This document shows, in pieces, positions 20,542-63,624 of a stretch of 64,000 bases of DNA. The number at the start of each line of letters is the position of its first letter. The stretch's first letter is position 1. Position numbers and translations under genes: made by a program. The stretch is from positions 108,310,823-108,374,822 of the forward strand of contig NC_064822.1 in the NCBI RefSeq assembly GCF_024166365.1, written 5' to 3'. The notes below the pieces were generated by a model. The model saw nothing but the letters and a program-made list of their open reading frames with translations. It did no database searches and had not been told where the DNA came from. Source of the DNA: Elephas maximus indicus. Its lineage: Eukaryota > Chordata > Mammalia > Proboscidea > Elephantidae.

Positions 20542-20630
20542 GGCTGGAGAGAAGCAGGTGAGCTCGGAGGTATCAGAGAGAAGCCAGAGGGACCAGACCA
20601 GTGAATGCTGGAGCCTTCAGCCTTGGTCTC

Positions 20631-26575: not shown

Positions 26576-26797
26576 ATATAAGGTATTGCACTTTGAGGGT
26601 GGTCTACACACCATCTACCGCCCCCAGCCCAGATGCCTGAGAAGAGAAGCCCCACTCTGTAAGAGGAACGGCCTCTGCAGCTGGGGACCACCCAGGTTGG
26701 TGAGGTGGAGCTGATTCTGCTAAGTGCTAGGCCCTTGTGTTTCTAAACTGTGGCTTAAGGTTTGCATCAAAATCCTATCCTCCCCTCCCAGGCAGGG

Positions 26798-27252
26798 AAC
26801 ACAACAGAGAGTCCCTGATGGAGCAGGAGAAAAGTAGGGTGCAGAACTCAAATTCCAGTAAAAAGACCAGACTTAATGGTCTGACTGAGACTGGAGGAGC
26901 CCCAGAAGACATGCCCCCCAGACTCCCTGTTAACCCAGAACTAAAACCACTCCCGAAGCCAACTCTTTAGATGTGGATTAGACTGGACTGTAGGACATAA
27001 AACGATATTTGTGAAGAGTGTGCTTCTTAGCTCAAGTGGACATCGGGCTAAATGGGCAACTCCTGTCCAGAGGTAAGATGAGAAGGCAGAAAGGAACAGG
27101 AGCTGGTTGAAAGGACACAGGAAATCCAGGATAGAAAGGAAGAGTGTGCTGTCACATTATAGAGAAAGCAACTAGGGTCACATAACAATGTGTGTATAAA
27201 TTTTTGTATAAGAAACGAACTTGAGCTATAAACTTTCCTTAAAGCACAATAA
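26798..27252 (+). mobile_element. L1 3' UTR fragment
   Basis: Shares 'gaccagacttaatggtctga' with the L1 ends at 1-771 and 47160, and ends 'aagcacaataaaaaaagaaa'. Truncated and old. Confidence 0.8.
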
Positions 27253-29639: not shown

Positions 29640-32600
29640 CTAATACCTCCGGCTGGACGTCTTGACTGTGGTGGTCTTTCGCAGGATGGAGGTGCCACCA
29701 GAGACGCCCCTGCCCTTGGCAGAGCTGTAGCCCACATTGGGGCTGAAGCCACCTTTGATACGTCCCACACCCCCACTCAGGGAGATGCCACCCCCGAAGC
29801 CAGCTGAGCAGCCTCTGCTCACAGTGGTGGAGTTGCCAGTCACAGCTGCAAGGCAAAGGGTCCGGGCTAGGCAGGGCAGTGGTACCTGGAGAGGGCTGGA
29901 TGACATCTAGGAGTGGATGAGGGGTGGAATCAAATCAGGCAGTGGAGCCCAGGGAAACAGATAGAGGAGCCTGGGGCAGAAAGCATGTTCTCTGAGGCCC
30001 CCCCGAACCTGCCCCCCAGGAGAACCCATGGAGGGGAGTGCACTTGAGGCCAAGAACAGGCTGAATGAACTGAGCAGAGGAAAGGAACCAGGCCGGGGAT
30101 GGGGCAGGGGCTGGGCAGCAAAATACTCACAAATGCTAACCGCACTCTGACATTCTCCAGACATCCTGGGGGAAGCAGAAAGGCCGAGTGAAGGGTCAGT
30201 GGTCTCAAGAACCTGAGTGAAAACCCTCTCCTTCCTTCTGCCTTTATACTGGATCAACTTGGTAGGTCAGATCTCGAAAGCCAAGGCCAAAATGATGAGA
30301 CCAGGAGATGATGGAAAGCGTGCACATGTGTTGTGGTCCATACATACAATGGAATATTACTCAGCCATAAAGAGAGACGAAGTCCTGATACGTGCTATGA
30401 CCTGGATGAACCTCGAAAACATTATGCTAATTGAAATAAACCAGACACAAAAGGACAAATGTATGATTCCACTTATATGAAATATTCAGAATAGGCAAAT
30501 AAGTAGAGACAAAAGGTTGTTAGTGGTTACCAGGGCCCAGGAGGAGGGGGCAAAACCAGTTGCCTTTGAGTCAATTCTGACTCATGGTGACCCCTTATGT
30601 GTCAGAGTAGAACTGCGTTCTGTAAGGTTTTCAATGGCTGATTTTTTGGAAGTAGATTGCCAGGTCTTTCTTCCCAGGCACCTCTGGGTGGATTTGAACC
30701 TCCAATCTTCCAGTTAGCAGCTGAGCATATTAACCATCTGCACCACCCAGTGATGGGAGGAGGAGGTAATGGGGAATTATTACTTATCGGGTACTGAGTT
30801 TCAGTTCGAGATAATGAAAAAGTTTTGGAAATAAACGGCGGTGATGAAGGCACAACACTGTGAATGTAATTAATGCCACTGAGTTGTACACTTAAAATGG
30901 TTAAAATGGCAAATTTTATATTATATAGATTTTACCACAAGAAAAAAATGAGTGGCTGGTTGCTCCTGCGCTAAGACTCACAGCTCTTCAACCAAGTCCT
31001 AAAGCTGCGGAGGAAGCAGAGCTGCCAACAGGCCGTGCCACCTACGCCCTCCTCCCCTGCCCCTCTCTCTCCCTGTGGGCCATGGACAGTATCCCTGCTC
31101 CGATGGAAACAAAACCCCCGCCACAAACAGCTGCTCAGGTTCTGACTAAACTGACTTTCTCTCTGTCTCTTGCTTTCCCCAAAGACCAAAAAAAAAAAAA
31201 CATTGTGTCGGTTCCAATTCATGGCGACCCCATGTGTTATAGAGTAGAACTGCTCCATAGGGTTTTCTTGGCTGTAATCTTAATGGAAGCAGATCACCAG
31301 GCCTGTCTTCCGTAGTACCACTGGGTAGGTTCGAACCGCTAACCTTTAGGTTAGTAACTGAGCACAAACCATTTGCACCATCCAGGTCAAAGCTTCCACT
31401 GGTGGTGAGATCTAATGCTGGAAGAGAGGTCTCCTACATCTTCCCAGCCTCGTTTTGTTGTGGGCGACCACAAAGGTTAACAGCGGGATGATTGTGCCAA
31501 CCAAGGAGAAGAGCGGACAGAGGAAGGAGCAGTGGGAGGTTACCCTCAGATGATAAGTCAGGAGCCCGGCCTCCTGGGCTCCCTCCTTGGTCCCCTGCCC
31601 CTACCATTAGACTACACAGGTTCTTTCATCAGGTAGCACAGGGAAGCCCCTGAATCGGGGGCAGGGGGGCACCCACCGGCTCTCCTCGCCCTCCAGGAGG
31701 GTACGGTAGGTAGCAATCTCCACATCCAGGGCCAGCTTGACATTCATCAGGGCCTGGTAGTCACGCAACAGCCGTACCAGGTCCTCCTTAGCCTGATGCA
31801 GGGCCACATCTAGGTCTCCAAGCTTCTTCTGAGCATCCTTGAGCGCCACCTCCGCACGCTGCTCTGCTTCTGTGATGGCCATCTGCAGCTGCTGGCACTG
31901 CCCACAGGGTGAGGGGTGTTGGAAACACTCTCTCCAGAGTCACCTGCCCTCAAGCCAGGCACCACCACCCCACCCCTTCGCCCCAAACAAATGGTAAAAA
32001 AGGAAAGGAGAAATATTCATCTGAGAGAGGAGATACTATTACACAAGCAGGATCGTGTAGCACCACTGGGAAAGTTCTTACTGAAGTCTAACTTCAATCC
32101 CTCCCACTGCAGCTCAGCCCAGTGCCTCAGAAGAGATTTTTAAAAAATAATGCAACAACCTCATCAATAACCAAATGCTTCGCTCTGATCTGGGGAGGAG
32201 TCCACACTTTTTGGCTATCCCCCAGGTGGAGTCAGCAGCTGTGACCTGGACCCTTGAACCCTCAGACTCCTGATCTGACCCTCTGGAAATGGGCCCCGTC
32301 TCATTGGAGGAGGTCATTCCACCTGCTCTACCACTTATATGCTGTGTGACCTTGGACAAGCCTATTCCCCTATCTGGGCCTTTTGCCACTATAAAAGAGG
32401 GTGTTGATCTTGATGACACAGCATTTGAGTATGTCTCATCAGTCAGAAGAAAAGCAGGTCTTGTCCCTCAGGATAACAGTGAGAAGGTCTCCCTCCCTGA
32501 CCAGCCTCCAGGCCTGACCCCAGGCCCTCAGTCCAAGGCCCACCTGCTTTTTGACTGCGTCCACCTCACCCTGCAGCCTCTGCACAGTACAGGTAAGTTC

Positions 32601-38600: not shown

Positions 38601-41600
38601 CATTAAGGAAGTCCTGATGGGCCCCATGTCAGCCAAGCTCTCTTTTGGGGAGCAGCTCTTTAATGCAGCCTACCAGTGAAGGAACATGGGATACTATCTT
38701 TATTTCAATATTCTCTCCTCCCCGCCCCTTTTGAAGAAAGGGGCACAGACTTTGTGCAATAATATGGCAATCAAGAGCAGCCATCTCTTTGGGTCAGAGG
38801 CCTGGGGAGGCTTTACAAGAACGGTGAAGCTGCGTCAACAACGGTTACCCTTTACCTCCGCTTTCGTCAGCGCCACATCGTTTTAAGAGACCAACTCCTC
38901 CCCGGCTGCTTTTGTTGAGACATTTAGGTGTCAAATTATGGAGCAAGTTATTTTAAGCTGTGCCATAAGATTATAAACAGGCATATCAGCCCATCATAAT
39001 ATATGAATCCTATCTGGATCTTCAGTTCGAATCTGCCAGGCGCTCCTTGGAAACTCTATGGCGCAGTTCTACTCTGTCCTACAGGGTCGCTATGAATCAG
39101 AATCGACTCGACGGCACTGGGTTTGGTTTGGTTTATCTGGATCTTGTTTCAAACAAACTGTCTTTTTAGAATTTCTGACATTTATGGAACAACTGGCAAG
39201 TCAAAACTGGATACTTTATGATATTGAGGAATTATCGTTTTAAAAGTTTTATGTGTAATTACGGTATTGTCCTTATGTTTTATCAAGTCAAATTATGCAG
39301 ATGAAGTATATGAATATGCCCAGTAAAATGCTTGTGAATGGAATGACATGATGGCTGGGATTTGAGGAGAAGTGGGTAGGGGTATGGACAAAACAAAGTT
39401 CACTGTGAGTTCATAATTTTTAAAGCTGGGTGATGAGAACGTGAGGGTTCATTATATTACTCTCTCCACTTTTATAAACATTTACATTTTCTATAAGATT
39501 ATGAAATCGTCACAAACAACCTGACAGTGCAGGAAGCAGTGGGTCTTAGATCTGAGTGCCTAAGGGACCCAAGTCTATCTGTGATCCTTCCCCCATCCTG
39601 TTCCCTCCTCACACGCCCCCTCCCCCCACGCCCCCTCCCGCCATGGCCCAGCCTGTCCAGCTCCCCTCACTTGTTCTTGAAGTCCTCGAGGAGATCCTGC
39701 ACATTCCTGAGCTCTGAGTCCATCCTCCCCCGCTCGCTCTGGAGGCCGTCCAGCTGCCTCCGCAGGTTGCCCAGGTAGGACTCAAAGAGGGGCTCCAGGT
39801 TGTTCCTGGTGACACCTGTGTTCTGGCCCTGCTCCTGCAGCAGTGCCCACTTGGTCTCCAGCACCTTGTTCTGCTGCTCCAGGAAGCGCACCTGAGCCAG
39901 AGCAAGAAAGGTAAGCTAGTACCATCTCCCAGCCATGGGAGGGGCCGAGGACAGGGGCCCACCACCTCCCACCATTAACAGACCAGGACATCAAAGGGCC
40001 AGTGCAGGGCCTACACCTTGCCAAGGGGAACAAGCTTTGCTGGAAATGGCAGTGCAATCAGAGGAAAAGAACTCTAAAGAGTTAATTTACATAAAACCCT
40101 CAGCTCAGCCATTTACTAGTTGATCACAAGTCACTTCTCTCTGGGTCTTGCCTTCTCACTCTCTTGGGTAAACCGAACTAGACAAATGTTTCTACACCCT
40201 AACTCCGCATGATAATCAACTGTTAAAAATGCACATGTAGGCGGAGCCAAGATGGCGGACTAGGCAGACGCTACCTCGGATCCCTCTTACAACAAAGACA
40301 CGGAAAAACAAGTGAATCGATCACATACATAACAATCTACGAACGCTGAACAACAAACACAGATTTAGAGACGGAGAACGAACTAATACGGGGAAGCAGC
40401 GATTGTTTCCAGAGCCTGGAGCCAGCATACCAGTCAGGTACGGCACAAGCACAGAGACCTGCTCCACCCCCCTGAACTAACCCCGGGAGGGGGACTAGCC
40501 GGTTCCACGGGCGGCGTGGGACGCAGCCGTTAGGAGAAGTCCCCGGGAGGCAGTGACTGATCTTGGAGCAGAAAGAGTAGCATCCGAGCCGGGGAACTGT
40601 CCCACAGGGATTTGGACTGCACGCAGGTACGCCATAAACACGGAGAGTTGCTCCACCCCCTGAACTAACCCCGGGAAGGTGACCATCCGGGTCGCGCGGG
40701 CGGCGTGGGACGCAGCCGGTAGGAGAAGTCCCCGGGAGGCAGCGACTGGTATTGGAGCGGGGAGAACAGCGTTCCAGCCGGGACACTCGGTCGCGGCACA
40801 AGCACGGGGAGCTACTCCACCCATCTGAACTAACCCCGGGAGGGGGCCCACCTGGTTCACGGGGGCGGCACGGCCACGCGGCTGGAGGGACGAGAAGTCC
40901 CCGGGAGGCAGCGACTGATTTTGGAGTCGAGAGTGCACCGTCCCAGTAGGGGAGCCTTGACGCTGGGCGTGGGGCTGGAAGCGGAGGATCTGACCGTGAC
41001 TCCAGCGGGCCAGACCCCCCAGGGGCAATCTCCACACAGACAGCACACATAGGCGACGCGCCCGCGGGAATCTCAGATATAAGAGTCATTCCAAGCAAGA
41101 CAAGCAACTCTGGCTATATTCTGAGGTGCTACTCTCCTATCTCTCTGTTCCCTCCCCCACCCTCCCCAGGCGGCTTCATTAACATCTGAATAGCCTGAGC
41201 CAGAGGGAGAACTCTGATAGGGATCTGACTGCAGTTTTTTTTTAGCGGATTTTCTGGAAAAACTAGTTTCCCAGTGATGGCTCGGAGACAACAATCCATA
41301 TCAAACCACTTAAAGAAGCAGACAGTGACAGCTTCTCCAACCCCCCAAACAAAAGAATCAAAATCTTTCCCAAATGAAGATACAATCTTGGAATTATCAG
41401 ATACAGAATATAAAAAACTAATTTACAGAATGCTTAATGATATCACAAATGAAATTAGGATATCTGCAGAAAAAGCCAAGGAACACACTGATAAAACTGT
41501 TGAAGAACTCAAAAAGATTATTCAAGAACATACTGGAAAAATTAATAAGTTGCAAGAATCCATAGAGAGACAACATGTAGAAATCCAAAAGATTAACAAT

Positions 41601-44600
41601 AAAATAACAGAATTAGACAACACACTAGGAAGTCAGAGGAGCAGACTCGAGCAATTAGAATGCAGACTGGGACATCTGGAGGACCAGGGAATCAACACCA
41701 ACATAGCTGAAAAAAAATCAGATAAAAGAATTAAAAAAAATGAAGAAACCCTAAGAATTATGTGGGACTCTATCAAGAAGGATAACCTGCGGGTGATTGG
41801 AGTCCCAGAACAGGGAGGGGGGACAGAAAACACAGAGAAAATAGTTGAAGAACTTCTGACAGAAAACTTCCCTGACATCATGAAAGACGAAAGGATATCT
41901 ATCCAAGATGCTCATCGAACCCCATTTAAGATTGATCCAAAAAGAAAAACACCAAGACATATTATCATCAAACTCACCAAAACCAAAGATAAACAGAAAA
42001 TTTTAAAAGCAGCCAGGGAGAAAAGAAAGGTTTCCTTCAAGGGAGAATCAATAAGAATATGTTCTGACTACTCAGCAGAAACCATGCAGGCAAGAAGGGA
42101 ATGGGACGACATATACAGAACACTGAAGGAGAAGAACTGCCAACCAAGGATCATATATCCAGCAAAACTCTCTCTGAAATATGAAGGCGAAATTAAGATA
42201 TTTACAGACAAACACAAGTTTAGAGAATTTGCAAAAACCAAACCAAAGCTACAAGAAATACTAAAGGATATTGTTTGGTCAGAGAACCAATAATATCAGA
42301 TATCAGCACAACACAAGGTCACAAAACAGAACGTCCTGATATCAACTCAAATAGGGAAATCACAAAAACAAACAAATTAAGATTAATTAAAAAAAAATAC
42401 ACATAACAGGGAATCATGGAAGTCAATAGGTAAAAGATCACAATAACCAAAAAGAGGGACTAAATACAGGAGGCATTGAACTGCCATATGGAGAGTGATA
42501 CAAGGCGATATAGAACAATACAAGTTAGGTTTTTACTTAGAAAAATAGGGGTATATAATGAGGTAACCACAAAAAGGTATAACAACTCTATAACTCAAGA
42601 CAAAAACCAAGAAAAACGTAACGACTCAACTAACATAAAGTCAAACACTATGAAAGTGAGGATCTCACAATTTACTAAGAAAAACGCCTCAGCACAAAAA
42701 AGTATGTGGAAAAATGAAATTGTCAACAACACACATAAAAAGGCATCAAAATGACAGCACTAAAAACTTATTTATCTATAATTACCCTGAATGTAAATGG
42801 ACTAAATGCACCAATAAAGAGACAGAGAGTCACAGACTGGATAAAGAAACACGATCCATCTATATGCTGCCTACAAGAGACACACCTTAGACTTAGAGAC
42901 ACAAACAAACTAAAACTCAAAGGATGGAAAAAAGTATATCAAGCAAACAATAAGCAAAAAAGAAGAGGAGTAGCAATATTAATTTCTGACAAAATAGACT
43001 TTAGACTTAAATCCACCACAAAGGATAAAGAAGGACACTATATAATGATAAAAGGGACAATTGATCAGGAAGACATAACCATATTAAATATTTACGCACC
43101 CAATGACAGGGCTGCAAGATATATAAATCAAATTTTAACAGAACTGAAAAGCGAGATAGATACCTCCACAATTATAGTAGGAGACTTCAACACACCCCTT
43201 TCGGAGAAGGACAGGACATCCAGTAAGAAGCTCAACAGAGACACGGAAGATCTAATTACAACAATCAACCAACTTGACCTCATTGACTTATACAGAACAC
43301 TCCACCCAACTGCTGCAAAATATACTTTTTTTTCTAGCGCACATGGAACATTCTCTAGAATAGACCACATATTAGGTCATAAAACAAACCTTTGCAGAGT
43401 CCAAAACATCGAAATATTACAAAGCATCTTCTCAGACCACAAGGCAATAAAACTAGAGATCAATAACAGAAGAACGAGGGAAAAGAAATCAAATACTTGG
43501 AAAATGAACAATACCCTCCTGAAAAAAGACTGGGTTATAGAAGACATCAAAGAGGGAATAAGGAAATTCATAGAAAGCAACGAGAATGAAAATACTTCCT
43601 ATCAAAACCTCTGGGACACAGCAAAAGCAGTGCTCAGAGGCCAATTTATATCAATAAATGCACACATACAAAAAGAAGAAAGAGCCAAAATCAGAGAACT
43701 GTCCCTACAACTTGAACAAATAGAAAGTGAGCAACAAAAGAATCCATCAGGCACCAGAAGAAAACAAATAATAAAAATTAGAGCTGAACTAAATGAATTA
43801 GAGAACAGAAAAACAATTGAAAGAATTAACAAAGCCAAAAGCTGGTTCTTTGAAAAAATTAACAAAATTGATAAACCATTGGCTAGACTGACTAAAGAAA
43901 TACAGGAAAGGAAACAAATAACCCGAATAAGAAATGAGAAGGACCACATCACAACAGAACCAAATGAAATTAAAAGAATCATTTCAGATTATTATGAAAA
44001 ATTGTACTCTAACAAATTTGAAAACCTAGAAGAAATGGATGAATTCCTTGAAAAACACTACCTACCTAAACTAACACATTCAGAAGCAGAACAACTAAAT
44101 AGACCCATAACAAAAAAAGAGATTGAAATGGTAATCAAAAAACTCCCAACAAAAAAAAGTCCTGGCCCGGACGGCTTCACTGCAGAGTTCTACCAAATTT
44201 TCAGAGAAGAGTTAACACCACTACTACTAAAGGTATTCCAAAGCATAGAAAATGACGGAATACTACCCAACTCATTCTATGAAGCCACCATCTCCCTGAT
44301 ACCAAAACCAGGTAAAGACATTACAAAAAAAGAAAATTATAGACCTATATCCCTCATGAACATTGATGCAAAAATCCTCAACAAAATTCTAGCCAATAGA
44401 ATCCAACAACACATCAAAAAAATAATTCACCCTGATCAAGTGGGATTTATACCAGGTATGCAAGGCTGGTTTAATATCAGAAAAACCATTAATGTAATCC
44501 ATCACATAAATAAAACAAAAGACAAAAACCACATGATCTTATCAATTGATGCAGAAAAGGCATTTGACAAAGTCCAACACCCATTTATGATAAAAACTCT

Positions 44601-47558
44601 TACCAAAATAGGAATTGAAGGAAAATTCCTCAACATAATAAAGGGCATCTATGCAAAGCCAACAGCCAATATCACTCTAAATGGAGAGAACCTGAAAGCA
44701 TTTCCCTTGAGAACGGGAACCAGACAAGGATGCCCTTTATCACCGCTCTTATTCAACATCGTGTTGGAAGTCTTAGCCAGGGCAATCAGGCTAGACAAAG
44801 AAATAAAAGGTATCCGGATTGGCAAGGAAGAAGTAAAGTTATCACTATTTGCAGATGACATGATTATATACACAGAAAACCCTAAGGAATCCTCCAGAAA
44901 ACTACTGAAACTAATAGAAGAGTTTGGCAGAGTCTCAGGTTATAAAATAAACATACGAAAATCACTTGGATTCCTCTACATCAACAAAAAGAACACCGAA
45001 GAGGAAATAACCAAATCAATACCATTCACGGTAGCCCCCAAGAAGATAAGATACTTAGGAATAAATCTTACCAAGGATGTAAAAGACCTATACAAAGAAA
45101 ACTACAAAGCTCTACTACAAGAAATTCAAAAGGACATACTTAAGTGGAAAAACATACCTTGCTCATGGATAGGAAGACTTAACATAGTAAAAATGTCTAT
45201 TCTACCAAAAGCCATCTATACATTTAACGCACTTCCGATCCAAATTCCAATGTCATATTTTAAGGGGATAGAGAAACAAATCACCAATTTCATATGGAAG
45301 GGAAAGAAGCCCCGGATAAGCAAAGCACTACTGAAAAAGAAGAAGAAAGTGGGAGGCCTCACCTTACCTGACTTCAGAACCTATTATACAGCCACAGTAG
45401 TCAAAACAGCCTGGTATTGGTACAACAACAGACACATAGACCAATGGAACAGAATTGAGAACCCAGACATAGATCCATCCACGTATGAGCAGCTGATATT
45501 TGACAAAGGACCAGTGTCAATTAACTGGGGAAAAGACAGCCTTTTTAACAAATGGTGCTGGCATAACTGGATATCCATTTGCAAAAAAATGAAACAGGAC
45601 CCATACCTCACACCATGCACAAAAACTAACTCCAAGTGGATCAAAGACCTAAACATAAAGACTAAAACGATAAAGATCATGGAAGAAAAAATTGGGACAA
45701 CCCTAGGAGCCCTAATACAAGGTATAAACAGAATACAAAACATTACCAAAAATGATGAAGAGAAACCCGATAATTGGGAGCTCCTAAAAATCAAACACCT
45801 ATGCTCATCTAAAGACTTCACCAAAAGAGTAAAAAGACCACCTACAGATTGGGAAAGAATTTTCAGCTATGACATCTCCGACCAGCGCCTGATCTCTAAA
45901 ATCTACATGATTCTATCAAAACTCAACCACAAAAAGACAAACAACCCAATCAAGAAGTGGGCAAAGGATATGAACACACATTTCTCTAAAGAAGATATTC
46001 AGGCAGCCAACAGATACATGAGAAAATGCTCTCGATCATTAGCCATTAGAGAAATGCAAATTAAAACTACGATGAGATTCCATCTCACACCAACAAGGCT
46101 GGCATTAATCCAAAAAACACAAAATAATAAATGTTGGAGAGGCTGCGGAGAGATTGGAACTCTCATACACTGCTGGTGGGAATGTAAAATGGTACAACCA
46201 CTTTGGAAATCTATCTGGCGTTATCTTAAACAGTTAGAAATAGAACTACCATACAACCCAGAAATCCCACTCCTCGGAATATACCCTAGAGATACAAGAG
46301 CCTTCATACAAACAGATATATGCACACCCATGTTTATTGCAGCTCTGTTTACAATAGCAAAAAGTTGGAAGCAACCAAGGTGTCCATCAACGGATGAATG
46401 GGTAAATAAATTGTGGTATATTCACACAATGGAATACTACGCATCGATAAAGAACAGTGACGAATCTCTGAAACATTTCATAACATGGAGGAACCTGGAA
46501 GGCATTATGCTGAGCGAAATGAGTCAGAGGCAAAAGGACAAATATTGTATAAGACCACTATTATAAGATCTTGAGAAATAGTAAACCTGAGAAGAACACA
46601 TACTTTTGTGGTTACGAGGGGGGGAGGGAGGGAGGGTGGGAGAGGGTTTTTTTATTGATTAATCAGTAGATAAGAACTGCTTTAGGTGAAGGGAAAGACA
46701 ACACTCAATACATGGAAGGTCAGCTCAATTGGACTGGACCAAAAGCAAAGAAGTTTCCGGGATAAAATGAATGCTTCAAAGCTCAGCGGAGCAAGCGCGG
46801 GGGTCTGGGGAACATGGTTTGCGGGGACTTCTAAGTCAATTGGCAAAATAATTCTATTATGAAATCATTCTGCATCCCACTTTGAAATGTGGCGTCTGGG
46901 GTCTTAAATGCTAACAAGCAGCCATCTAAGATGCAGCAATTGGTCTCAACCCACCTGGAGCAAAGGAAAATGAAGAACACCAAGCCCACATGACAACTAA
47001 GAGCCCAAGAGACAGAAAGGGCCACATGAACAAGAGACCTACATCATCCTGAGACCAGAAGAACTAGTTGGTGCCCGGCCACAATCGATGACTGCCCTGA
47101 CAGGGAGCTCAGCAGAGGACCCCTGAGGGAGCAGGAGAGCAGTGGGATGCAGACCCCAAATTCTCATAAGAAGACCAAACTTAATGGTCTGACTGAGACT
47201 GGAGGAATCCCGGCGGCCATGCTCTCCAGACCTTCTGTTGACACAGGACAGGAACCATCCCTGAAGACAACTCATCAGACATGAAAGGGACTGGTCAGCG
47301 GGTGGGAGAGAGACGCTGATGAAGAGTGAGCTAATTATATCAGGTGTACACTTGAGATTGTGTTGGCAACTCTTGTCTGGAGGGGGGATGGGAGGATAGA
47401 GAGAGAGGGAAGCCGGCAAAATTGTCAAGAAAGGAGAGACTGAAAGGGCTGACTCAAGACGGGGAGAGTAAGTGGGAGTAGGGAGTGAGATGTATGTAAA
47501 CTTATATGTGACAGACTGATTGGATTTGTAAACGTTCACTTGAAGCTTAATAAAAGTT

Positions 47559-47607
<49 letters not shown>

Positions 47608-49656
47608 GTATGTATATATATGGTGTAAACACATATACACACATACAGAGAGAGAAAGCAAACATGGCAAAATGTAGCGTATACAGGAGAATGTTGTACT
47701 GTTCCTGCAACTGTTCTGTAAATTTAAACTTTTTCCAGAAAAAAAAAAAGATTTTTTAAAATACTGATGCCCTAGCCCCATCTCTATAGACTCAGAAAGG
47801 GAGCTTTCAGGGGTTCTCTGCCCAGCCAGGGCTATGAGCCAATAGTCAGCAGACAATCAGGCCCCCAGCTCCCAGGCCGTTATTCTGAGAGCCTGAGAAA
47901 GGGTTTTGTTTGTGTGATCTCTGAAACAGTTCCACTAAAGAATGAAAAGTCACTAGGGGAGAGGGTGAGGAGGGTGGGCGGGGCAACTTGCTTCACCCTC
48001 TGCCATCCAGCCTCCCAGGCTCCCACCCACACAGCACCTGGGCCCACAGCCACATGGTCCAGGAGACTGTGCAGCATTGCACCTGTCGTGAGCAGTAACG
48101 AGAACTCTTGGTTCCAAGGACCACAGGAAAGTCCCACGTCCCCAGAGCTCCAGGTCCAAACGCGCACCGGGGTCCAAGAATCTGGGTCCCAGTCCCACTT
48201 CTGCCTCCAAACACTTATGTGATCCTGGAAAACTCACCTGACCTCACTAGACCTCAGTTTCCTCTTCTTAAAAATCAGCATAATATCACCTACCCTGACT
48301 TCTCATGGCACCACTGTGAGTATCACATGAGAAAGGGGACATCAATGTCCTTTGAGAAAGCTCAAATAATGAACCAAGGTATGACCAGGATCTTCCTCAT
48401 CAGGCCCCACTGCCTGAGGACTTAGGGCCAAGGCAGACGACGCCAGCGAAATGGATCAGAATATGTCATAGAACAGTGGGAGAGCCCCTTCTCCTCCCAC
48501 CTTGTCAAAAAGGAGACAAGGGAAGAAGTCAGGGTTCTCCAAATCTGAGACAGATGAAACTTCATATCCCCAGGTCGTGGTGACCTGGTGACCTGCTCCC
48601 CATGGTCCACCCCAAACTGAGCTTTCTGTACCAAACAGGGAGGAGGAATAGAAGAAGCAAAGAGGGGACTTTCCCAGGGAGCCACTCTGTTGGGTCCTGA
48701 TTACATCTTTGCCCCTTAGGCCTCCTCCAAGGCTAAGAGCACAGGGGACAGAGTCAGGGCTCCATGCCCTCAGCCTTGGATAACTTGTTCAGCTCGGAGC
48801 CATGGTTTTTCCAGGTGTAAAATGACAAAAGGCTACAAAGACCACCCACTAAGAGGAACTACAAGGACAGTCCATTGTTTAATTGTGGTTTTAGGCTACT
48901 GTGTGACCATATTAATCATGACCGCAGTAAAGATTCCAACATGCTAAAGATGGGCTTGGCCAATAGTCCGCACGAGTAGACTCACCTGAGCAATTGCGTT
49001 AAGACCAGGAAGACCATCTCCACCTCCCAGCTCAGGCCAGGACAGCTCCAAAAATTATCCCATCAACCCCCCATCCCAGTGCACAGGAGGCTACAACAGC
49101 CTTTGCCCAGTACCCCCTCTCTAGAGGCCTTACTTCTACTCCAAGGGGCTCCTCCTTGCTCCCCTCTACTGAAGCCCACCTTGTCAATGAAGGAGGCAAA
49201 CTTGTTGTTGAGGGTCTTGATCTGCTCCCGCTCTTGGGTGCGCACCCGCTGGATCTCCGGGTCTATCTCCACATTGAGGGGGGTCAGCAGGTTCTGGTTG
49301 ACAGTGACCTCCTGGATCCCACCAGGAGGGCAGGTGGGCACAAATGTCTGCCTGCCAGCCCCCAGGCCCATACAGGCTCTGCCACTGAGGGCAAAGCCCC
49401 CCTGAGCCTGCCCTAAGGAGGCCCCTGCAGCTACACTGGCTGAGATACTCTTGCTACCCCCCAAGTTATACAGGCTCCAGCTGCCAAAGCCACCTGTGCT
49501 AGGCTCACAGCGGGCCCCACCACCACTGCCACTGTTTCGGGACATGGTCACGGAGCTGAAGCTGGTGTGGGTCCGGGACCCACCCCCTCCGCTAGCAGAG
49601 CTGGAGCTGAAGCCCCCTTTGGTGGAGTATATCCGTGGAGACATAGAGGACCTCAT
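29640..49656 (-). CDS. KRT79: Keratin 79, type II cytoskeletal (nine exons)
   Basis: Epithelial type II keratin, known in mouse from hair-follicle infundibulum and sebaceous duct. Exons in transcription order: 49656-49180, 39891-39671, 38319-38259, 38132-38037, 33018-32854, 32669-32544, 31897-31677, 30165-30131, 29845-29640. All introns are GT-AG; 535 aa, equal to human K79. The start is the Met of '[15 protein letters not shown]', which matches the human N-terminus ('MRSSVSRQTYSTKGG'); an upstream in-frame Met at 49731 lies at or upstream of the expected transcription start and is not used. Helix initiation '[18 protein letters not shown]' spans residues 142-159, the rod ends near 456, and the tail ends '[15 protein letters not shown]'. 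Odd residues: W60 in the usually invariant 'SRSLYNLGG', C367 in 'ELTCTVQ', and T448 in the helix termination motif ('YRTLLEGEE' for 'YRKLLEGEE'). Frame and splice sites are intact. Intron 1 is 9.3 kb because of an antisense L1; intron 4 is 5.0 kb. Confidence 0.97.
30310..30950 (+). mobile_element. Old L1 3' fragment in KRT79 intron 7, split by a SINE
   Basis: The left part (30310-30551) encodes the L1 ORF2 C-terminal region ('caatggaatattactcagcc'). The right part (30753-30950) is an L1M-type 3' end ('ccactgagttgtacacttaa'). An AfroSINE separates them. Confidence 0.82.
30552..30752 (-). mobile_element. AfroSINE inside an old L1
   Basis: Reverse-oriented: 'ttgagtcaattctgactcat', 'gcacctctgggtggatttga' and 'ccatctgcaccacccag'. 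Confidence 0.9.
31190..31388 (-). mobile_element. AfroSINE in KRT79 intron 7
   Basis: A poly-A start, then 'attcatggcgaccccatgtg', 'tgctccatagggttttcttg' and 'ccatttgcaccatccagg'. Same strand as the gene. Confidence 0.9.
32310..32410 (+). repeat. MIR fragment in KRT79 intron 6
   Basis: 'tatgctgtgtgaccttggac' and 'ataaaagagggtgttgatct' are MIR-like. Confidence 0.65.
33270..33610 (-). repeat. MIR-like sequence in KRT79 intron 4
   Basis: 'ggtgccaggtgctatgctag' and 'aacacacccaaggtcaccag' are reverse MIR blocks separated by unassigned sequence. Confidence 0.5.
34105..34260 (-). repeat. MIR in KRT79 intron 4
   Basis: 'cacttactatggttccagac', 'attaagtaagttgccccaaa' and 'caccagctagtaagtggaga'. Confidence 0.72.
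34485..34695 (+). repeat. MIR in KRT79 intron 4
   Basis: 'ctcagcttcctgttctgtaa', 'aatgaccataataatagctt' and 'ggtgagtgcttagtaaaatg'. Confidence 0.75.
35500..35725 (+). repeat. L2 LINE 3' fragment in KRT79 intron 4
   Basis: 'caactcaaatgtcctctcct', 'gggcagggacttcatctttc' and 'actaggtaaatgtttgttaa'. The remainder of intron 4 (35726-37659) holds no element I recognise. Confidence 0.75.
37660..37895 (+). repeat. MIR in KRT79 intron 4
   Basis: 'agttctagctctgcctctta', 'ctatgtgacctgag' and 'aagttgttgagaatattatg'. Confidence 0.78.
38380..38556 (-). mobile_element. AfroSINE in KRT79 intron 2
   Basis: 'gtgtgttacagagtagaact', 'tgctccatagggttttcttg' and 'gtttgctccacccaggg'. It sits about 60 bp upstream of the exon 3 acceptor, in the same sense as the gene. 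Confidence 0.88.
39018..39135 (+). mobile_element. AfroSINE, 5' truncated, in KRT79 intron 2
   Basis: Starts at the B box ('cagttcgaatctgccaggcg') and keeps 'gaatcagaatcgactcgacg' plus the 'gggtttggtttggttt' end. Confidence 0.88.
40240..41276 (+). promoter_or_regulatory. L1 5' UTR / internal promoter with tandem GC-rich units
   Basis: Opens with 'gcggagccaagatggcgg', whose 'ccaagatggcgg' (40247-40258) resembles the YY1 site at the start of human L1. Between about 40430 and 40960, three GC- and CpG-rich units recur: 'ctgaactaaccccgggagg'-like at 40472, 40660 and 40825, and 'agaagtccccgggaggcag' at 40535, 40724 and 40893. Confidence 0.82.
41277..42293 (+). CDS. L1 ORF1 protein (RNA-binding, coiled-coil trimer)
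   Basis: Encodes 338 aa, the same length as human ORF1p. ORF1p coats L1 RNA in the cytoplasmic ribonucleoprotein. It has a basic N-terminus ('[15 protein letters not shown]'), a long heptad-rich coiled coil at about residues 45-155, an RRM beginning at '[10 protein letters not shown]' (residue 170), and a C-terminal domain with '[17 protein letters not shown]' and '[20 protein letters not shown]'. An in-frame GTG lies just upstream, but ATG 41277 gives the family length. No stops or frameshifts. Confidence 0.96.
   Translation: MARRQQSISNHLKKQTVTASPTPQTKESKSFPNEDTILELSDTEYKKLIYRMLNDITNEIRISAEKAKEHTDKTVEELKKIIQEHTGKINKLQESIERQHVEIQKINNKITELDNTLGSQRSRLEQLECRLGHLEDQGINTNIAEKKSDKRIKKNEETLRIMWDSIKKDNLRVIGVPEQGGGTENTEKIVEELLTENFPDIMKDERISIQDAHRTPFKIDPKRKTPRHIIIKLTKTKDKQKILKAAREKRKVSFKGESIRICSDYSAETMQARREWDDIYRTLKEKNCQPRIIYPAKLSLKYEGEIKIFTDKHKFREFAKTKPKLQEILKDIVWSENQ
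42294..42750 (+). other. L1 inter-ORF spacer with small open frame
   Basis: 457 bp, against about 63 bp in human L1. An open frame from the ATG at 42488 (88 codons, Lys/Asn-rich, no known domain) ends in a TGA at 42752-42754 that overlaps the ORF2 ATG as ATGA. Confidence 0.75.
42751..46566 (+). CDS. L1 ORF2 protein (endonuclease-reverse transcriptase)
   Basis: Encodes 1271 aa (human 1275). It performs target-primed reverse transcription, nicking DNA and copying L1 RNA. The apurinic-like endonuclease has N14, E43 ('CCLQETH'), D145/N147 ('VGDFNTPL') and the 'SDHKAI' histidine motif, at the same N-terminal numbering as human. The reverse transcriptase has '[15 protein letters not shown]', '[18 protein letters not shown]' and the catalytic 'FADDMIIY' with D702/D703. 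The Cys-rich C-terminus '[19 protein letters not shown]' starts at residue 1128. All inspected key residues are present and the frame is uninterrupted. Confidence 0.97.
46618..46646 (+). repeat. G-run tract in the L1 3' UTR
   Basis: Five or more runs of at least three G separated by single A or T ('gggagggagggagggtggg'), a G-quadruplex-type polypurine tract. A G-rich 3' UTR tract is a known L1 feature. Confidence 0.8.
47549..47554 (+). terminator. L1 polyadenylation signal AATAAA
   Basis: AATAAA just before the ~38-bp poly-A tail of the intact L1. Confidence 0.85.
47625..47760 (+). repeat. Probable old L1 3' end flanking the young L1
   Basis: 'gaatgttgtactgttcctgc' and 'aactgttctgtaaatttaaa' followed by A-rich sequence resemble an L1M 3' end. 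The young L1 seems to have landed in this older repeat. Confidence 0.5.
48170..48350 (+). repeat. MIR in KRT79 intron 1
   Basis: 'tatgtgatcctggaaaactc', 'agacctcagtttcctcttct' and 'gcaccactgtgagtatcaca'. Confidence 0.75.
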
Positions 49657-56106: not shown

Positions 56107-56298
56107 CCCCTCCTACTGGTCAAGCCCACCCAGGAGTTTTTCAGCCCAGAGGCTGGGGAAGAGGAGAAGATGAGGCTGGCTGTCTGGATGAGGAGGGCTG
56201 GTTACTATGCACCTTAACTTGGGGTGGACAACAGACAAATGAGATGTGCAAGCATTCAGAGCAACAGACAGCAAGTCTGGAGAGGAAAGCAGTATGGC

Positions 56299-56304
56299 TT
56301 TATT
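56299..56304 (-). terminator. KRT78: KRT78 polyadenylation signal AATAAA
   Basis: Minus-strand AATAAA 140 bp past the KRT78 stop, giving a short 3' UTR. Confidence 0.75.
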
Positions 56305-56443
56305 GATTTTGCAGAACCCTACTGGGGGGCTCAGGCTGTGGGCAGTGGAGACAGAGCTGGCCAGGCAGAGCCCAGTGACGGGGGTGATGGAGCAGGCCTG
56401 ACTGGTTCAGGAAGGAGGTGGGAGCAAGCTGTTGCCAGCTCAC

Positions 56444-59400
56444 TTAGTATGTGATGGACGTCTTCAAAGTTGACTCGACCGTCTTCTTGAGGATGGTGCG
56501 GCAGTTGGAGCTAGAGCTGGAGCCAGAGCGAGAGCCAGACACAGAGCAGGAGCCCAACACAGGGCCCTGTCCAGAACCCAGGATGACACTGGAGCCTCCA
56601 GTCACGATGCTGGAGCAACTGGACCCAAAATCAACTTTCTTGTCTCCGAGTCCACAAGTGCCCACCAGGTCTCCACCGACTCCTCCAGGCACCGTGGTGC
56701 TGCCTCCCACGGCAGCTGCAAGGAATGCACCAGGGTCACAGCAGGGTCCTCATTTCCCCATGGGGACCCCTCTCCCTAAGTCCACAGATACTCACAGATC
56801 GTGACCTGGCTGGTGCACTCCCCAGACATCCTGGAGGAGAAAGGGCAAGAGGAGGAAACTCTAAGAAAGGCTGCAGAAAATGCATCCCTCCAGGTGCTCG
56901 TGAGCCTGAAAGCAGCTCCCCTGTACTCTCAGCTGGTAATGTCTACAGTCCCCAAGGTAAAATCCCTTCCAGCAGTGCTGGCTGCCCTTAGTGAATCACG
57001 GTGTCAGGAAAGCTATCAGAACCCCCTTTGGCAAGGAGAGCACTGTGTAGGGACTCAATCCTCCTCCGCCGCCTTTCCACAGTCACTGTCCCATATCCCC
57101 CCTCCCACCAGCCTGCCCCCACCTGCACTCCTCGCCCTCCAACAGCCTCCGGTAGGTGGCGATCTCCACGTCCAGGGCCAGCTTTGTGCTCATCAGCTCC
57201 TGGTAGTCCCGCAGAAGGCGGGCCAGGTCCTGCTTGGCCCTTCTCAGAGCTGCCTCCAGCTCCTCCAACTTGGCCTGAGCATCCTTGAGGGCCAGCTCCC
57301 CGCGCTGCTCCGAATCAGTGATGGCCGACTGCAGGCTGCCATTCTGGGTAGGGAGTCAGGGTGGAAATGAGGGAGGAAGTGGCTATGGACCCAACACAGT
57401 CCCCTAAAGCACTCGGTGTGGTTATAACGTGAGACTAGGGTAGATTATAATCTCACAGGCTCAATACTACCCATGGGCACCCCCTGGTGCCTCTCATTCT
57501 AAAGGAACCTATTGCCTCTTCTGCTTCCTCACCTCCCTTGCCACGTCCTGAGGTTATCTCCCTTACTTCTGCCCTTCCCCAACCCTCAGCACTGCACCTG
57601 AGCCTCTCCTAAGGTACTTAAAGTTCTTCCTGTCCCATATGGATAACTGCCTACAAATCTCAAGGGGTCCTTGATATTTTTAGGACAGCCCACTTTTCAT
57701 ACTTTGTCCTGTTATCAAATCTTGTGCCTCAATTCTGGTTTAAAAAATACCATCTCTGTACCTACCTCTCCAATCTAATAGAAATCTCCTAGAGAAAAGG
57801 CAATATCCCTGTCTAGTCAGAAGCAGAGTTGTATGACAGTCTTCTAAATGTCTTCACACTTGACTCAGGAAAGAAGGCGTTCCCTAAAGGCACTCATTAT
57901 TTTTTCCCACACAAACACCCTGTGGATGAGGAACATCAATAGCATTTTACAGATGAAAAAAACTGAGGCTCAGAAAGGTGGTGAGTGGCAGAGCTGGGAT
58001 CCTGACTCCACACCACTGACGTCCAGCCCACTGCTCTTACCGCAGCCCACAGCCTCGCACAAGGAAGCCCGGTTTATGTCTGTGCTTGAATAGGCAAAGG
58101 GGGCAGCTATATCCCCCAGAGGGACTCTCATAGGAGAAGTCCGTTGCTGTGTGTGTGCAGCTGTGATTCCCAGTCACGGGTATACTGTACCAGTTAATCA
58201 GTTACAGTCGAGTTGATTCTGACTCATAGAGACCCCCCGTGTTTCAGAATGGAGCTATGCTCCAGAGGGTTTTCAAGGCTGTGACCTTTCAGAAGTAGAC
58301 CGCTAGGCCTTTCTTCCAGTGCGCCTCTGGGTGGGTTCAAACCACCAACCTTTCAGTAAGTAGTCAAGCACTTAAACATTTGCGCTACCCAGTGGCTCCT
58401 TCCTCAACAGAGGACCAAGAAATTCAGTGTTTGGCCTTCAAGTCCCTGCTAAGCTTGAGGAGTAGGAGTCAAAAGAAGAGATAAGAGATGACCCTGAAGT
58501 CATCTTAAAATCTAGAACTATTTAGCTAAACTAGTAAAAAGATCAGCCTGCAGTATTACGCTCTTTTAAGAACTATCTATATGGGGTCAAATTGACAGCA
58601 GCAACTTGAAAGATTAGATAGGAACCTTAGGGGGCGTTGAGTTTATGTTAATGAGGGAGGAAAAAGAAATGGCTGGTAATAGTGATTGCACAGCTCGAAG
58701 AATGTAATCGATGTCACTGAATTGTATGTACATGTAGAAATGATTGAATTGGTGTATGTTTGCTGTGTACATTCTCAACAACAACAATAAAATTTAGAAA
58801 AAAAAATTTTTTTTAAGAGCTGAGTTAACCCTTTCCCCAAGAAATCAAAAGCAAGGTATACACGTGGACATGGATTAGAGTGTGAATGGTACCCCCTGGG
58901 GTTTTGGCAACATCCCAAAAAAGCCAAAATGCAGAGGCTAGAACTTATGAGAGGAAGGCTAAATTACCCAAATCTCCAGCCAGCGATTACATTTTTCAAC
59001 ACAAAACCAGTGGCAACTGAAGAGAGAGAGACTAGGAATTGGAGAGGGAGTTGAAAGACTGAAATGATAAGAGGAGAGGGGGTCAGGAGGGCTCATGGGG
59101 TCAGGAGGGCTCATGGGGTCAAGAAGCTTACCTGCTTCTTGAGGTTCTCAATCTGACTCTGCAGCCTCTGAATTGCTTGGTACAGCTGGGAGATCTGGGC
59201 TTTGGTTTCCCCCATACTGTCCCCTTGAAGCTGGACAGATGCCTGAAGCTCGTGGTACTGAGAGGGGAGCAGAGGTGACCCCATTAGTAGAGAGAACTCC
59301 CATCTTTGACCCCAAGACTGAGGAAGACACCATGTTCTCAGGGTTTTCCCTCCTACATCCTCATTTGGAATATGGGTTAAACACCTGGACCAGGAAATAA

Positions 59401-62400
59401 TAAGATGTGCTAGCAGAAGTCTAAACTCTTCTCCCTCGGTGGCCTCCCACCTACAGGGGTAGGAAATAGTCACCCCAAGCAGCCCAAGACCTTCAGACAA
59501 ATCATTGGAACTCCCCCAATGGGACTGAGATGAGTGTCCACCTGGGGCATGGGCATGGAGACCCAGGCTGTTCTAGCTAGTGCTACTCCCCCACCCAGGC
59601 CACACACCTTTGTCTGGTACAGTGCCTCGGCCTCGGCCTTGCTGGTCCGAGTGATCTCTTCATACCGGGCACGGACCTCAGCGATGACATCGCTGAAGTC
59701 CAGGCAGCGGTTGTTGTCCATGGACAGCACCACGGAAGTGTCATTGACCTGTGTCTGGAGCTGGCTCAGCTCCTACAGGGAAGATTGAATCAGTGTCCAC
59801 CATTCTCTGGAAGCCCCAGGCAGGTGGTCAGGATGCCTAGGTTTTTCTGCCTGCACTGTCAGGGGGGCAGCTCTCGTTCACCCCAGGTGACGTTGAGCAT
59901 CCCCTGCCCTCTTTGGGGCTCAGTGTCCTCATCTGAAAAGGAGGTGGTCTCTAAATACCTTTGCAGCTTCAACATCAAAGGCAAATAGCTCTTAAGGCCT
60001 TCTGTCACCTGGTCCCCATGGCTTCTCTGCCCTCACATCATACTTCTCTCCCCCACCTCCTACGCTACTGCACCAGCCACAATGGTCTCCTGGCATTTCC
60101 TCAGTGACACTAGGCACGCTCTTAACTCTGGTCTTGTACTAGCTGTTCCCTCTGTCTGGAATCCCCAGACACTCACCTGCATTGCTCTGTTCCTCGCCGC
60201 CTTCAAATCTTTGCTCAAATTTTGTCTTCTAAAGAAGGCCTAACCTGACCACCTGTTTTGAAATTGCCACCTGCCTATGCCCCTTCCCTACATTCTCAAT
60301 TCTCCTCTTCCTGTTGTAACTTTTCTTTTTTCCATAGACTTTATCACCTTCTAGCATGCTTTAGAGTTTCCTTATTTATTAAGTCTGTTGTTTATTGTCT
60401 GTCTCCCAGTAGAAAGTAAGCTTCATGATTTCTGTCTTGTTACGCTTTGATGTGTCTCCAGACCCTAGCAATCCACATGGTAACCAACTAACTGTTGTTT
60501 GGTGGATCTAGATTCATGGTGACCCCATTTGTGTCAGAGTAGAACTGTGCTCCATAGGGTTTTCAATGGCTGATTTTTTGGAATTAGATCTCCAGGCCTT
60601 TCTTCCAAGGCACCTCTGAGTGAACTCAAACCTCCAACCTTTCAGTTAGCAGCCGAGCACATTAACCATTTGTATCACCCACAGATTCACATAGTAAGCC
60701 CTCAGAAACTGTTTGCCCAATGACCGCCACAGGCTCTAAGTCACCCTAATAGGGTTTTGTCTCCCCGCTAGTTTCCCACCTCACCACCAGGAACCCACCC
60801 TGCCCTCTCCCTTCACTTCTGCCCACCCTTGGTGGATCCTCACTTCTTCATACAAACGCCTCAAGAAGCAGATGTACTCTCTCAGAGCCTCCAGCTTGCC
60901 TTTCAACTCCATCTTGCTCAGGAAGACCACATCCACATCCTGGGGACAGGGAGACAGACACCATATACCTCCCAGTTCCTCTTTGCCTTCCCCACTCTGT
61001 GGCTTGGGAATTCTGTTCACACTTTGCCCCACACCCACCCCCCATCTTGGAGACCCACCCCTTCCTCCTCAGCCCAGCCCTGCCCCACTCTCCTTTCCCC
61101 AACACTGCCCCACTCCTGACTTCAGGAAGCCTTTCTTGATAAATCCCAATCTGTTCTTCCTCCGCTCCCTCCCCACCTCTCCTAAAGTGACGCCCAGAGC
61201 TCATCACTCCGCCCCTCAGCTGGGTCTTGTCTTGTGGTCTGAGCATCTCAGTAGATGTTCATGTCCCTGGGGGTTCCCTGAAGGTGCCTTCCAACAAGAT
61301 CTCCCACTCTCTGGCCCCCCACGCTGGGCCCGGACGTTGTGCACAGTGAGTGCTCAGGACCAGAGGGGAACGTCTGACCCCCACCGGTACCTTTTTGAGG
61401 ATCACAAAGTCATTCTCAACCGTGGCACGTGTGTGGGCCTCTTGCTTATATCTGCCAAATAAGGAGAGAAGGGCCCAGCCTGAGGTGCTGAGCTGACAGT
61501 CCATGCCCCTGCCTCCAAGCATGACCTCCCAGAAGAAGCCACCCTTTCCTTCAGATGCTCCACAGGAGGACACACCACCAACCCCTTTTCCACCTTTCCT
61601 AGGAAGAAGCTCTTATCATGTCCTAGTTACCTTCCTCTGCCACTCTTTCAGCCCATGTCCCTTAATGACAAAAAGTCCACATTATGTTTTTAAGACATGT
61701 TCAGATACCTTTTCTCACTTGCTACTTACAACCACCATCTAAGGTAGGCAGTTTGGGTTTTATCAGAATGGTTTATATGACTTGCCCAAGATACCATAGA
61801 TGACTAGGGGGCCAAAGCAGACCTAAAATTCAGGTCTCCTAGCTCCAATCTTGGGCCCCTTCCAGAACCCACCACCACCTAAAAGCCCATCCTCCCAACA
61901 GCCCTAGAAAATAGCAACAGCAGGTGACGTTTTCCCAGTTTGTAGATATGAAAACTGAGGCTGGGAGAAGTTAAACAGCTACTCCTTCCTCATAGTTGCC
62001 CAAACCCAAGCTCCTTATTAGTCCAGGACTCTCTCCACACCACCAGGTGACCTAGGTGAGGAACTCAGAACCACAACCCAGCTGTGAATCATGCCATCGG
62101 CCTGGGGATGGTTCCACTAAATTGATTCCCTTCCACTTTTGAAACCAGAGAACATTTGAGTCACATTGGCTCAGAGCCTGTTGAACAGGAATTTCTCTAG
62201 AAAAAAACCCACCAAGGCATTTTTGAAATAAGCCCTTCCCAGCCCTGACCAGAAACAGGGGCCCTCGGAGCAGGGGCCTGTTGGAACCAAGAGGCAGTCC
62301 AATTGAGGCAATCTCCCTGGCCTTCCTCCAAGGCTCTCCAGATCTGGGCAGGGGGTTGCAGGGCCCACTTTACCTGCAGCAGGTGGGGCATCCTGGGATT

Positions 62401-63539
62401 CAGAAGGAATGGGGACGGGAGAGGGGGCTTAAGGGGCAGTAAGCCCTGTGTCTCTGTGAGCTCAGCATGGGGGAGACGCTCTGGCTGACAGACACAATCT
62501 GAGTCCTCCCACATGCCTCCCAGGCCCCATGGCAAAGTGCTGACAAAGTGGCTTTGCCTACTTGGCCTTATACTCCTCCTCCTGGTCCTGGCAGGTCTTC
62601 AGCTCAGCATCCAGAGCACCTCGTTCTCTCTGGAGCAACTCCAGCTTCTTCCTGAGATGGGTCAGGTAGTCTTCAAAGAAAGGCTCTAGGCTCTGGGGGC
62701 TGCCACTCACCCCCTGCTGCTGAAGCAAGTGCCACTTGGTCTCCAGCACCTTGTTCTGCTGCTCCAGGAACCGAACCTGCAGCCCAAGCAGAGGGTCCCT
62801 GAGGCTCCCATGGTACTTTCTGGGCAGAGCCTCTGGAAAGTAAAGCCTTAGGGACCCTCCAGTCAGCCCCCTTTTTCCCTGCCTCCCAACCCAGCCTGGG
62901 CAGAGGCAGGGCCTCATGCCTTCCATGAAACCTGAGCACATCTAAGAGTTTGGAAGGAATAATGCTGGCCAACCTAAGCTCCAAGCATGGAACAACAAAG
63001 CCTCATAATAACCAAAGAGACTCCAGTTAGACCACAGGGAGGACTTCCCGGCTGCAGGGAAGTATTTAGAAAGGTGATAGAAGGAGACCAGACTTCCCCC
63101 ATTCCCAAGTCCATCACGAGCAGCTTCTCTGAGGGGAACACAGAGACAGGGGCTTGGCTGAGTTGACCCTCACCTTATCAATGAAGGATGCAAATCGGTT
63201 GTTGAGGGCTCTGATCTCTTGGGTCTCCTGGGTCCGTACCATCTGGAACTGGGGATCAATCTCCATCTTCAATGGGGTCAGGAGATTCTGGTTGATGGTC
63301 ACTTCTTGGATGCCCCCCGGAGGGCAGAGGGAAAGCCCAGGCCTGCCCTTCCTTTCCCCAAACTGCATCCCTAGCCTTTCTCCTGACCCCCAGATCCTCC
63401 CACTGGAGGCCCCTTGGCGCCCCCTGAAAGAACTAAGGCTCCTGCTGCTGAAGCTGCCCCTGCCTCGGCCCCTTGAGCGAGCAGAACAGGCCGAGTGAGC
63501 ACTGAAGCCCCTCTGGGTCCGGCATGGGGAGAGAGACAT
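56444..63539 (-). CDS. KRT78: Keratin 78, type II cytoskeletal (nine exons)
   Basis: Divergent epithelial type II keratin. Exons in transcription order: 63539-63174, 62776-62562, 61451-61391, 60939-60844, 59772-59608, 59257-59132, 57343-57123, 56830-56796, 56715-56444. The total encodes 518 aa (human 520). The head '[20 protein letters not shown]' is short, lacks the 'SRSLYNLGG' block and matches human K78. The helix initiation motif is atypical, '[18 protein letters not shown]' (105-122), as in human K78. The rod ends at '[15 protein letters not shown]' (about 417), and the tail ends '[16 protein letters not shown]'. The exon 2 donor is GTAGGC, weak but GT. Exon 3 reads '[15 protein letters not shown]', diverged from the usual '[15 protein letters not shown]'. 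No lesion seen. Confidence 0.97.
57890..58045 (-). repeat. MIR in KRT78 intron 6
   Basis: 'cattttacagatgaaaaaaa', 'ctgaggctcagaaaggtggt' and 'ggcagagctgggatcctgac'. Confidence 0.78.
58195..58402 (-). mobile_element. AfroSINE in KRT78 intron 6
   Basis: 'cgagttgattctgactcata', 'cgcctctgggtgggttcaaa' and 'acatttgcgctacccag'. Same sense as the gene. Confidence 0.9.
58595..58805 (+). repeat. Unclassified A-tailed retroelement fragment
   Basis: Ends 'acaacaacaataaaattt' and then poly-A. It contains 'gatgtcactgaattgtatgt', loosely like L1M 3' ends. Family not recognised. Confidence 0.5.
59079..59114. repeat. 18-bp tandem duplication beside the KRT78 exon 6 donor
   Basis: Unit 'ggggtcaggagggctcat' occurs twice, followed by a third partial unit, ending about 10 bp from the intron 6 donor. 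Confidence 0.9.
60010..60480 (+). repeat. L2 LINE 3' fragment in KRT78 intron 4
   Basis: 'ctgttccctctgtctggaat', 'ccttcaaatctttgctcaaa' and 'ctagcatgctttagagtttc' are L2 blocks. Confidence 0.8.
60492..60682 (-). mobile_element. AfroSINE in KRT78 intron 4
   Basis: 'tagattcatggtgaccccat', 'gtgctccatagggttttcaa' and 'cattaaccatttgtatcacc'. Confidence 0.9.
61720..61865 (-). repeat. MIR-like fragment in KRT78 intron 2
   Basis: 'tatatgacttgcccaagata' and 'attcaggtctcctagctcca' fit a reverse MIR. A second weak MIR-like piece is near 61940-62000. Confidence 0.6.
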
Positions 63540-63624
63540 GGCAGGGACTGATGATCACGAAGCTATAGACAGATAGGCAGACTGTCAAGGTGTATGAGTT
63601 CCTGCCCTGGAGCCTCGGCACGAG

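Follow-up and report, generated by a model that had tools for sequence, protein, structure and literature searches.

A young, full-length L1 with intact reading frames lies antisense in KRT79 intron 1 of the Asian elephant

What is the element that fills most of the first intron of KRT79 in the Asian elephant, how recently did it arrive, and how exceptional is it within its own genome? The DNA analyzed here, referred to below as the window, is a 64,000-nucleotide stretch of Elephas maximus indicus, and our answer is that the intron almost certainly carries a young L1 in antisense to the gene, complete at its 5' end, intact in its coding frames and belonging to an elephant family that has been expanding recently. 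The host intron and the insertion are laid out as follows:

39892 to 49179, minus strand: KRT79 intron 1, with the L1 in antisense, from the splice borders (bordered by the start of exon 2 at 39891 and the end of exon 1 at 49180)
40225 to 40239, plus strand: 5' copy of the target-site duplication, aaaaatgcacatgta, an exact 15-mer
40240 to 47595, plus strand: full-length L1 including its A-tail, from the sequence
47564 to 47595, plus strand: poly(A) tail without interruption, from the sequence
47596 to 47610, plus strand: 3' copy of the target-site duplication, aaaaatgcacatgta, an exact 15-mer

The KRT79 exons lie on the minus strand of the window, and the spliced product of exons 1-7 is identical to the Elephas maximus indicus record over all 456 residues, with manatee, at 88%, as the next afrotherian listed in a search that merges proteins at 90% identity. 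Exon mapping and splice borders support the antisense placement proposed in the initial annotation, and its statement that the L1 makes up most of a 9.3-kb intron is borne out: the insertion together with one copy of the duplication accounts for 7,371 of 9,288 bp (79%), with 348 bp between the L1 5' end and exon 2 and 1,569 bp between the 3' duplication and exon 1. Type II keratin genes flank the locus on both sides, also on the minus strand (14268-20616 and 56113-63554); we take them to be KRT4 and KRT78, which would match the human gene order. An antisense bias of intronic LINEs has been published, antisense being the commoner orientation (PMC3088655, in excerpt), and the insertion is probably harmless to KRT79.

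A structurally complete L1 bounded by a perfect 15-bp duplication had been annotated at 40225-47610, and both the structure and the coordinates hold. Across the whole window the 15-mer aaaaatgcacatgta has two exact occurrences, both flanking the L1, and none of 3,000 random, equally spaced position pairs had a common 15-mer within 20-bp flanks. The AATAAA signal and long A-tail reported earlier are likewise in place: the signal lies at 47549, and the A-run extends uninterrupted over 37 nt (47564-47600), the final five of which are assignable to the duplication. The KRT79 element thereby combines the duplication, A-tail and A-rich target (gtt/aaaaatg) by which LINE-1 insertions are recognized. 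Duplications of at least 12 bp were seen in 13 other copies; 12 of them start with AAAA, at an end that the A-tail blurs, and in 11 of these copies the duplication is separated from GGCGGAGCC by 2-4 extra bases, of which the window copy has none, a trivial difference. Integration would have proceeded, as for other L1s, by target-primed reverse transcription into the A-rich site, with an internal 5'UTR promoter giving rise to a bicistronic RNA and the encoded ORF1p and ORF2p acting on it in cis, first nicking the target and then reverse transcribing.

Other repeats share the window. Another L1 3' end (1-766, plus strand) is cut by the window edge and is 84.7% identical to the 3'UTR described here over 783 aligned positions, and older L1 fragments are found at 929-1319, 11583-12126, 26787-26971 and 30331-30491. 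Broken reverse-transcriptase-like frames at 7623-9587 on the minus strand, one of them matching RVT_1, look to us like a BovB/RTE relic. Afrotherian mammals are described as carrying thousands of full-length BovBs (PMC6036668, in excerpt).

The coding part of the element comprises three features:

41277 to 42293, plus strand: ORF1, 338 aa, with Transposase_22 and dsRBD-like domains, from Pfam and structure alignment
42751 to 46566, plus strand: ORF2, 1271 aa, with endonuclease, reverse transcriptase and C-terminal Cys motif, from Pfam and structure alignment
46567 to 47563, plus strand: 3'UTR of 997 bp, with a G-rich tract at 46616-46642 and AATAAA at 47549, from the sequence

Both frames are open, at 338 and 1271 codons plus stop, and the earlier claim that ORF2 retains intact endonuclease and FADD residues was confirmed by Pfam, by alignment to human structures and by a residue check. 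Both ORF1 domains (PF02994, PF17490), RVT_1 and the endonuclease are matched in Pfam; ORF1p can be aligned with the solved human protein over residues 118-333 and ORF2p with its solved human counterpart over residues 1-1268. ORF2p has N14, E43, Y115, D145, N147, T192, D205, S228, D229 and H230, presumably the residues that matter, together with FADD and a C-terminal C-x3-C-x7-H-x4-C. ORF1p thus contains the RRM-like and C-terminal domains, and ORF2p an APE-like endonuclease, a reverse transcriptase bearing FADD and a C-terminal Cys motif, all as in LINE-1, and nothing speaks against L1 anatomy. It has two ORFs, the same domains, the catalytic residues, the A-tail and the target-site duplication in common with human L1PA1, and differs from it and from mammalian L1s in its 457-bp inter-ORF region and in a 5'UTR with tandem-like units.

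Among relatives, ORF2p deviates at 17 of 406 conserved columns, ranking 96th of 121 rows counted from the fewest; six of the seven deviating columns covered by another elephant record are common to both and one is not. Decay of ORF1 was suggested by five private sites against four records and was rejected, since against 20 genomic copies the protein has no private amino-acid change, which makes the impression of decay a subfamily effect. With respect to the AfroLINEs described as paenungulate L1 (PMC1764860, in excerpt), the relation is drawn through database records: ORF1 is closest to elephant records, with 92% identity over 45% to P0007 (Elephas) and 82% over 88% to P0002 (Loxodonta), and it is 97% identical over 95% to P0001 (ENA contig). 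The 3'UTR has no exact match in other sequence collections, the phage and plasmid collections hold no relative at E 1e-20, and in genome_contigs a single-protein search returned no relative and an alignment search one distant relative.

Several database entries with L1 sequence are best read as by-products. An 11.8-kb IMG/VR "viral" contig (L001/L002, 554-3550) encodes a mammal-type L1 ORF2 fragment, 60% identical, and is probably host DNA in a viral collection; a contig of a Paraburkholderia symbiont MAG (Vsou; L003, 1954-4644) encodes a protein distantly resembling ORF2 (23% identical), which is probably host contamination. Elephant proteins named for host genes (GNB1L-like, NUP42 and ZYG11B; P0003, P0005, P0132) carry L1 ORF1 or ORF2 sequence, probably owing to annotation through intronic L1 copies; the manatee NUP42 record P0006 gives a similar match.

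How exceptional the element is can be judged from the same genome, searched over 3.40 Gb in 64 contigs. A search with the 88-aa peptide encoded between the two ORFs gave 50,555 candidates, of which the 150 scored were all 100% identical and open, all of them on contigs C1 and C2; from these two contigs we fetched 20 copies, chosen as best matches to the peptide, for comparison, a sample that favors young copies. A DNA search of this genome with 601 bases of ORF2 gave no hits, since common words are passed over in such a search, and so has no bearing on rarity. Both ORFs are open in 14 of the 20 in this sample biased to young copies; of the other six, L038, L044 and L049 are each interrupted by a single stop codon and L036, L045 and L046 are only partly covered. 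Genome-wide, the unspliced 5'UTR donor pattern has 1,554 occurrences at no more than one mismatch (reversed control, 0), and the donor site, spliced or not, is found at 2,233 places. Asian elephant has been credited with 4,143 potentially active L1s (PMC12424770, in excerpt). The count of near-identical copies that had been called for therefore returns many, and with so many of them also intact, one intact copy is ordinary; the initial annotation placed too much weight on this single one. Sequence comparison indicates that the family is recently expanding in elephant, with the window copy as one young member.

It is in the 5'UTR that the copies differ most informatively, and its features in the window L1 are these:

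40240 to 41276, plus strand: 5'UTR, 1037 bp, GC 0.59, from the sequence
40435 to 40858, plus strand: two to three tandem-like units, with starts 189 and 164-169 bp apart
40438 to 41169, plus strand: intron D1-A1, 732 nt, GT...AG, retained in the window L1 and missing in L035
40627 to 41169, plus strand: intron D2-A1, 543 nt, GT...AG, retained in the window L1; junction at 304 genomic places
40627 to 41245, plus strand: intron D2-A2, 619 nt, GT...AG, retained in the window L1; junction at 375 genomic places

Its CpG observed/expected ratio is 0.74, against 0.21 in the window outside the L1, and it holds CAAGATGGC at 40248, which we take to be a YY1-like site and a 5' start common to human L1PA1. 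CpG richness and this site make the 5'UTR a candidate internal promoter, from which the element may be transcribed and active. An ORF0-like antisense frame (40337-41107, minus strand, facing KRT79 exon 2; 257 residues from the first listed codon, 250 from ATG) was considered and set aside as mostly explained by the tandem units: 258 open antisense codons arise in 2 of 2,000 dinucleotide shuffles and in 12 of 2,000 under a null that preserves the units, two units compared with each other show no excess of differences at third codon positions (12, 16 and 11 at positions 1, 2 and 3), and the frame has no Pfam match, with one weak donor-like GTAAG on the minus strand.

The first two tandem units start with CAG|GTACG, which serves as splice donor D1 in the first and D2 in the second. 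Seven of the 20 copies have a shortened 5'UTR (494, 494, 494, 418, 418, 415 and 305 nt, against 1,037): the D2-A1 segment is exactly missing in L034, L036 and L039, and the D2-A2 segment in L043, L045 and L049, with a further 3-nt difference in L045. Two of ten additional copies, L025 and L028, also show D2-A1, so that the exact GT-AG deletion inside an L1 that marks human SpIREs is found in nine of 30 other copies, eight of the 30 being judged unspliced solely from the sequence beside the acceptor. Counted genome-wide with 30-mers at no more than one mismatch (controls 0; D2-A1 and D2-A2 only), spliced D2 junctions make up 304 + 375 = 679 of 2,233 donor sites (30.4%). Among the seven shortened copies, three (L039, L043, L049) have duplications of 13-16 bp, in L034 and L035 just 6 bp match, and not at the 5' end, and L036 and L045 lack the 3' end in the fetched stretch.

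Such deletions could also have been inherited, as heritable subfamilies, from a small number of deleted source elements, or stem from microhomology deletion, and the junctions do have 2-4 nt of microhomology, while one of two sub-lineages contains all three D2-A2 copies and the other four of the five D2-A1 copies. We consider this origin unlikely. Each of the three junction classes is an exact GT-AG with a pyrimidine-rich acceptor, and the sites exclusive to the three D2-A1 copies, to the three D2-A2 copies or to all seven number zero in each case, against ten in the subgroup that unites the window L1 with L034, L035 and L050-L053. D2-A1 copies also stand on both sides of a supported split, and in a tree of 31 copies built outside the 5'UTR the spliced label is unclustered, requiring nine changes for nine spliced rows (shuffled mean 8.1), though 24 of its 28 inner branches are weak. 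Because spliced copies come without diagnostic sites, splicing looks recurrent, and repeated RNA splicing before integration appears to be the better reading of the 5'UTR deletions. Human SpIREs offer the precedent of GT-AG splicing inside the 5'UTR followed by integration with a target-site duplication, and there they are rare dead ends, 131 of 6,609 annotated full-length L1s or ~2% (PMC5860796, in excerpt). The elephant copies differ in having two donors within tandem units, and the window L1 is itself unspliced; the two fractions, 679 of 2,233 and 131 of 6,609, are defined differently, so Fisher values comparing them are only descriptive.

The recency claimed for the insertion is supported by the same copies, and, as the initial annotation proposed, it may be polymorphic and is a candidate active source element. 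The best aligned piece of each of the 20 is 99.0-99.6% identical to the window L1; with the 5'UTR set aside, the nearest, L052 and L053, differ at 22 of 6,287 sites (0.35%). Against all 20, 17 of 7,323 sites (0.23%) are private to the window L1, one of them of CpG type: four in the 5'UTR, two in ORF1 (synonymous), one in the inter-ORF region, eight in ORF2 (six synonymous, two non-synonymous; eight versus two over both ORFs) and two in the 3'UTR. At a rate borrowed from perissodactyls, 0.13% per My (PMC5872511, in excerpt), a divergence of 0.23-0.35% would correspond to an age of about 1-2 My. An independent bound comes from the open frames: under two assumed indel rates, both ORFs would stay open at 1% neutral decay with a probability of 0.0004-0.005, and decay is limited to no more than 0.4-0.6% at P = 0.05. 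An old, fixed insertion held open by chance or by a selected host function has no point in its favor, and it is very improbable given the 0.35% to the nearest copies, the 0.23% of private changes and the unbroken A-tail; high divergence, named at the outset as the sign of such an insertion, was not seen in comparison with copies of the same genome. That an L1 copy was misplaced into the intron during assembly, conceivable in principle with so many near-identical copies, is hardly credible when the same 15-bp duplication stands at both junctions and nowhere else in the window and 17 changes are unseen in 20 other copies.

One further trait of the young L1 in KRT79 is the stretch between its ORFs:

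42294 to 42750, plus strand: inter-ORF region, 457 bp, from the sequence
42488 to 42754, plus strand: 88-codon ORF in the inter-ORF region, whose TGA (42752-42754) overlaps the ORF2 start as ATGA

Little significance attaches to the overlap as such, because any ORF2 starting ATGA has it. A frame this long ending on the ORF2 start arose in 1 of 5,000 dinucleotide shuffles in a post hoc test, and any ATG-started 88-codon frame in 39 of 5,000. Folding by itself gives no grounds for a structured IRES in this stretch: shuffled sequences do equally well in 14 of 100 cases (z-score -1.23). Across 31 surveyed mammals the median inter-ORF length is 63 bp, with Afrotheria among the groups with long regions (PMC4072516, in excerpt); comparably long ones are reported for megabat lineage 1, at 445 bp (PMC4072516), and for perissodactyl families, at about 280-500 bp (PMC5872511), relative to which the elephant family is young and abundant. 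In the elephant region one 88-codon ORF runs up to and stops on the ORF2 start. In the megabat assay the long region lowered retrotransposition 26- to 40-fold, and removal of its AUGs caused a further 3.3-fold loss, read as reinitiation (PMC4072516). The resemblance of the elephant region to this inhibitory type is a counterpoint to activity of the KRT79 copy, and its anatomy fits the reinitiation idea, with the 88-codon ORF as a possible relay that may aid production of the ORF2 protein.

We tentatively propose, as a possibility rated somewhat below even, that in the living elephant family about three in ten donor-site insertions are spliced through effective tandem-unit donors, some tenfold more than in human, and that the inter-ORF region is kept because the 88-codon ORF feeds ORF2 through termination-reinitiation at ATGA. 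The single copy in KRT79 carries little weight; of more interest to specialists are the family's rate of splicing and the ORF that stops on ORF2. A family that has gone on expanding with ~30% of its donor sites spliced would offer a natural experiment on the cost of 5'UTR splicing to an L1. Likewise, a young and abundant family whose inter-ORF region is long and includes an ORF that stops exactly on the ORF2 start makes reinitiation testable in a living lineage, and the proposal, if true, would explain the persistence of long inter-ORF regions in active L1s.
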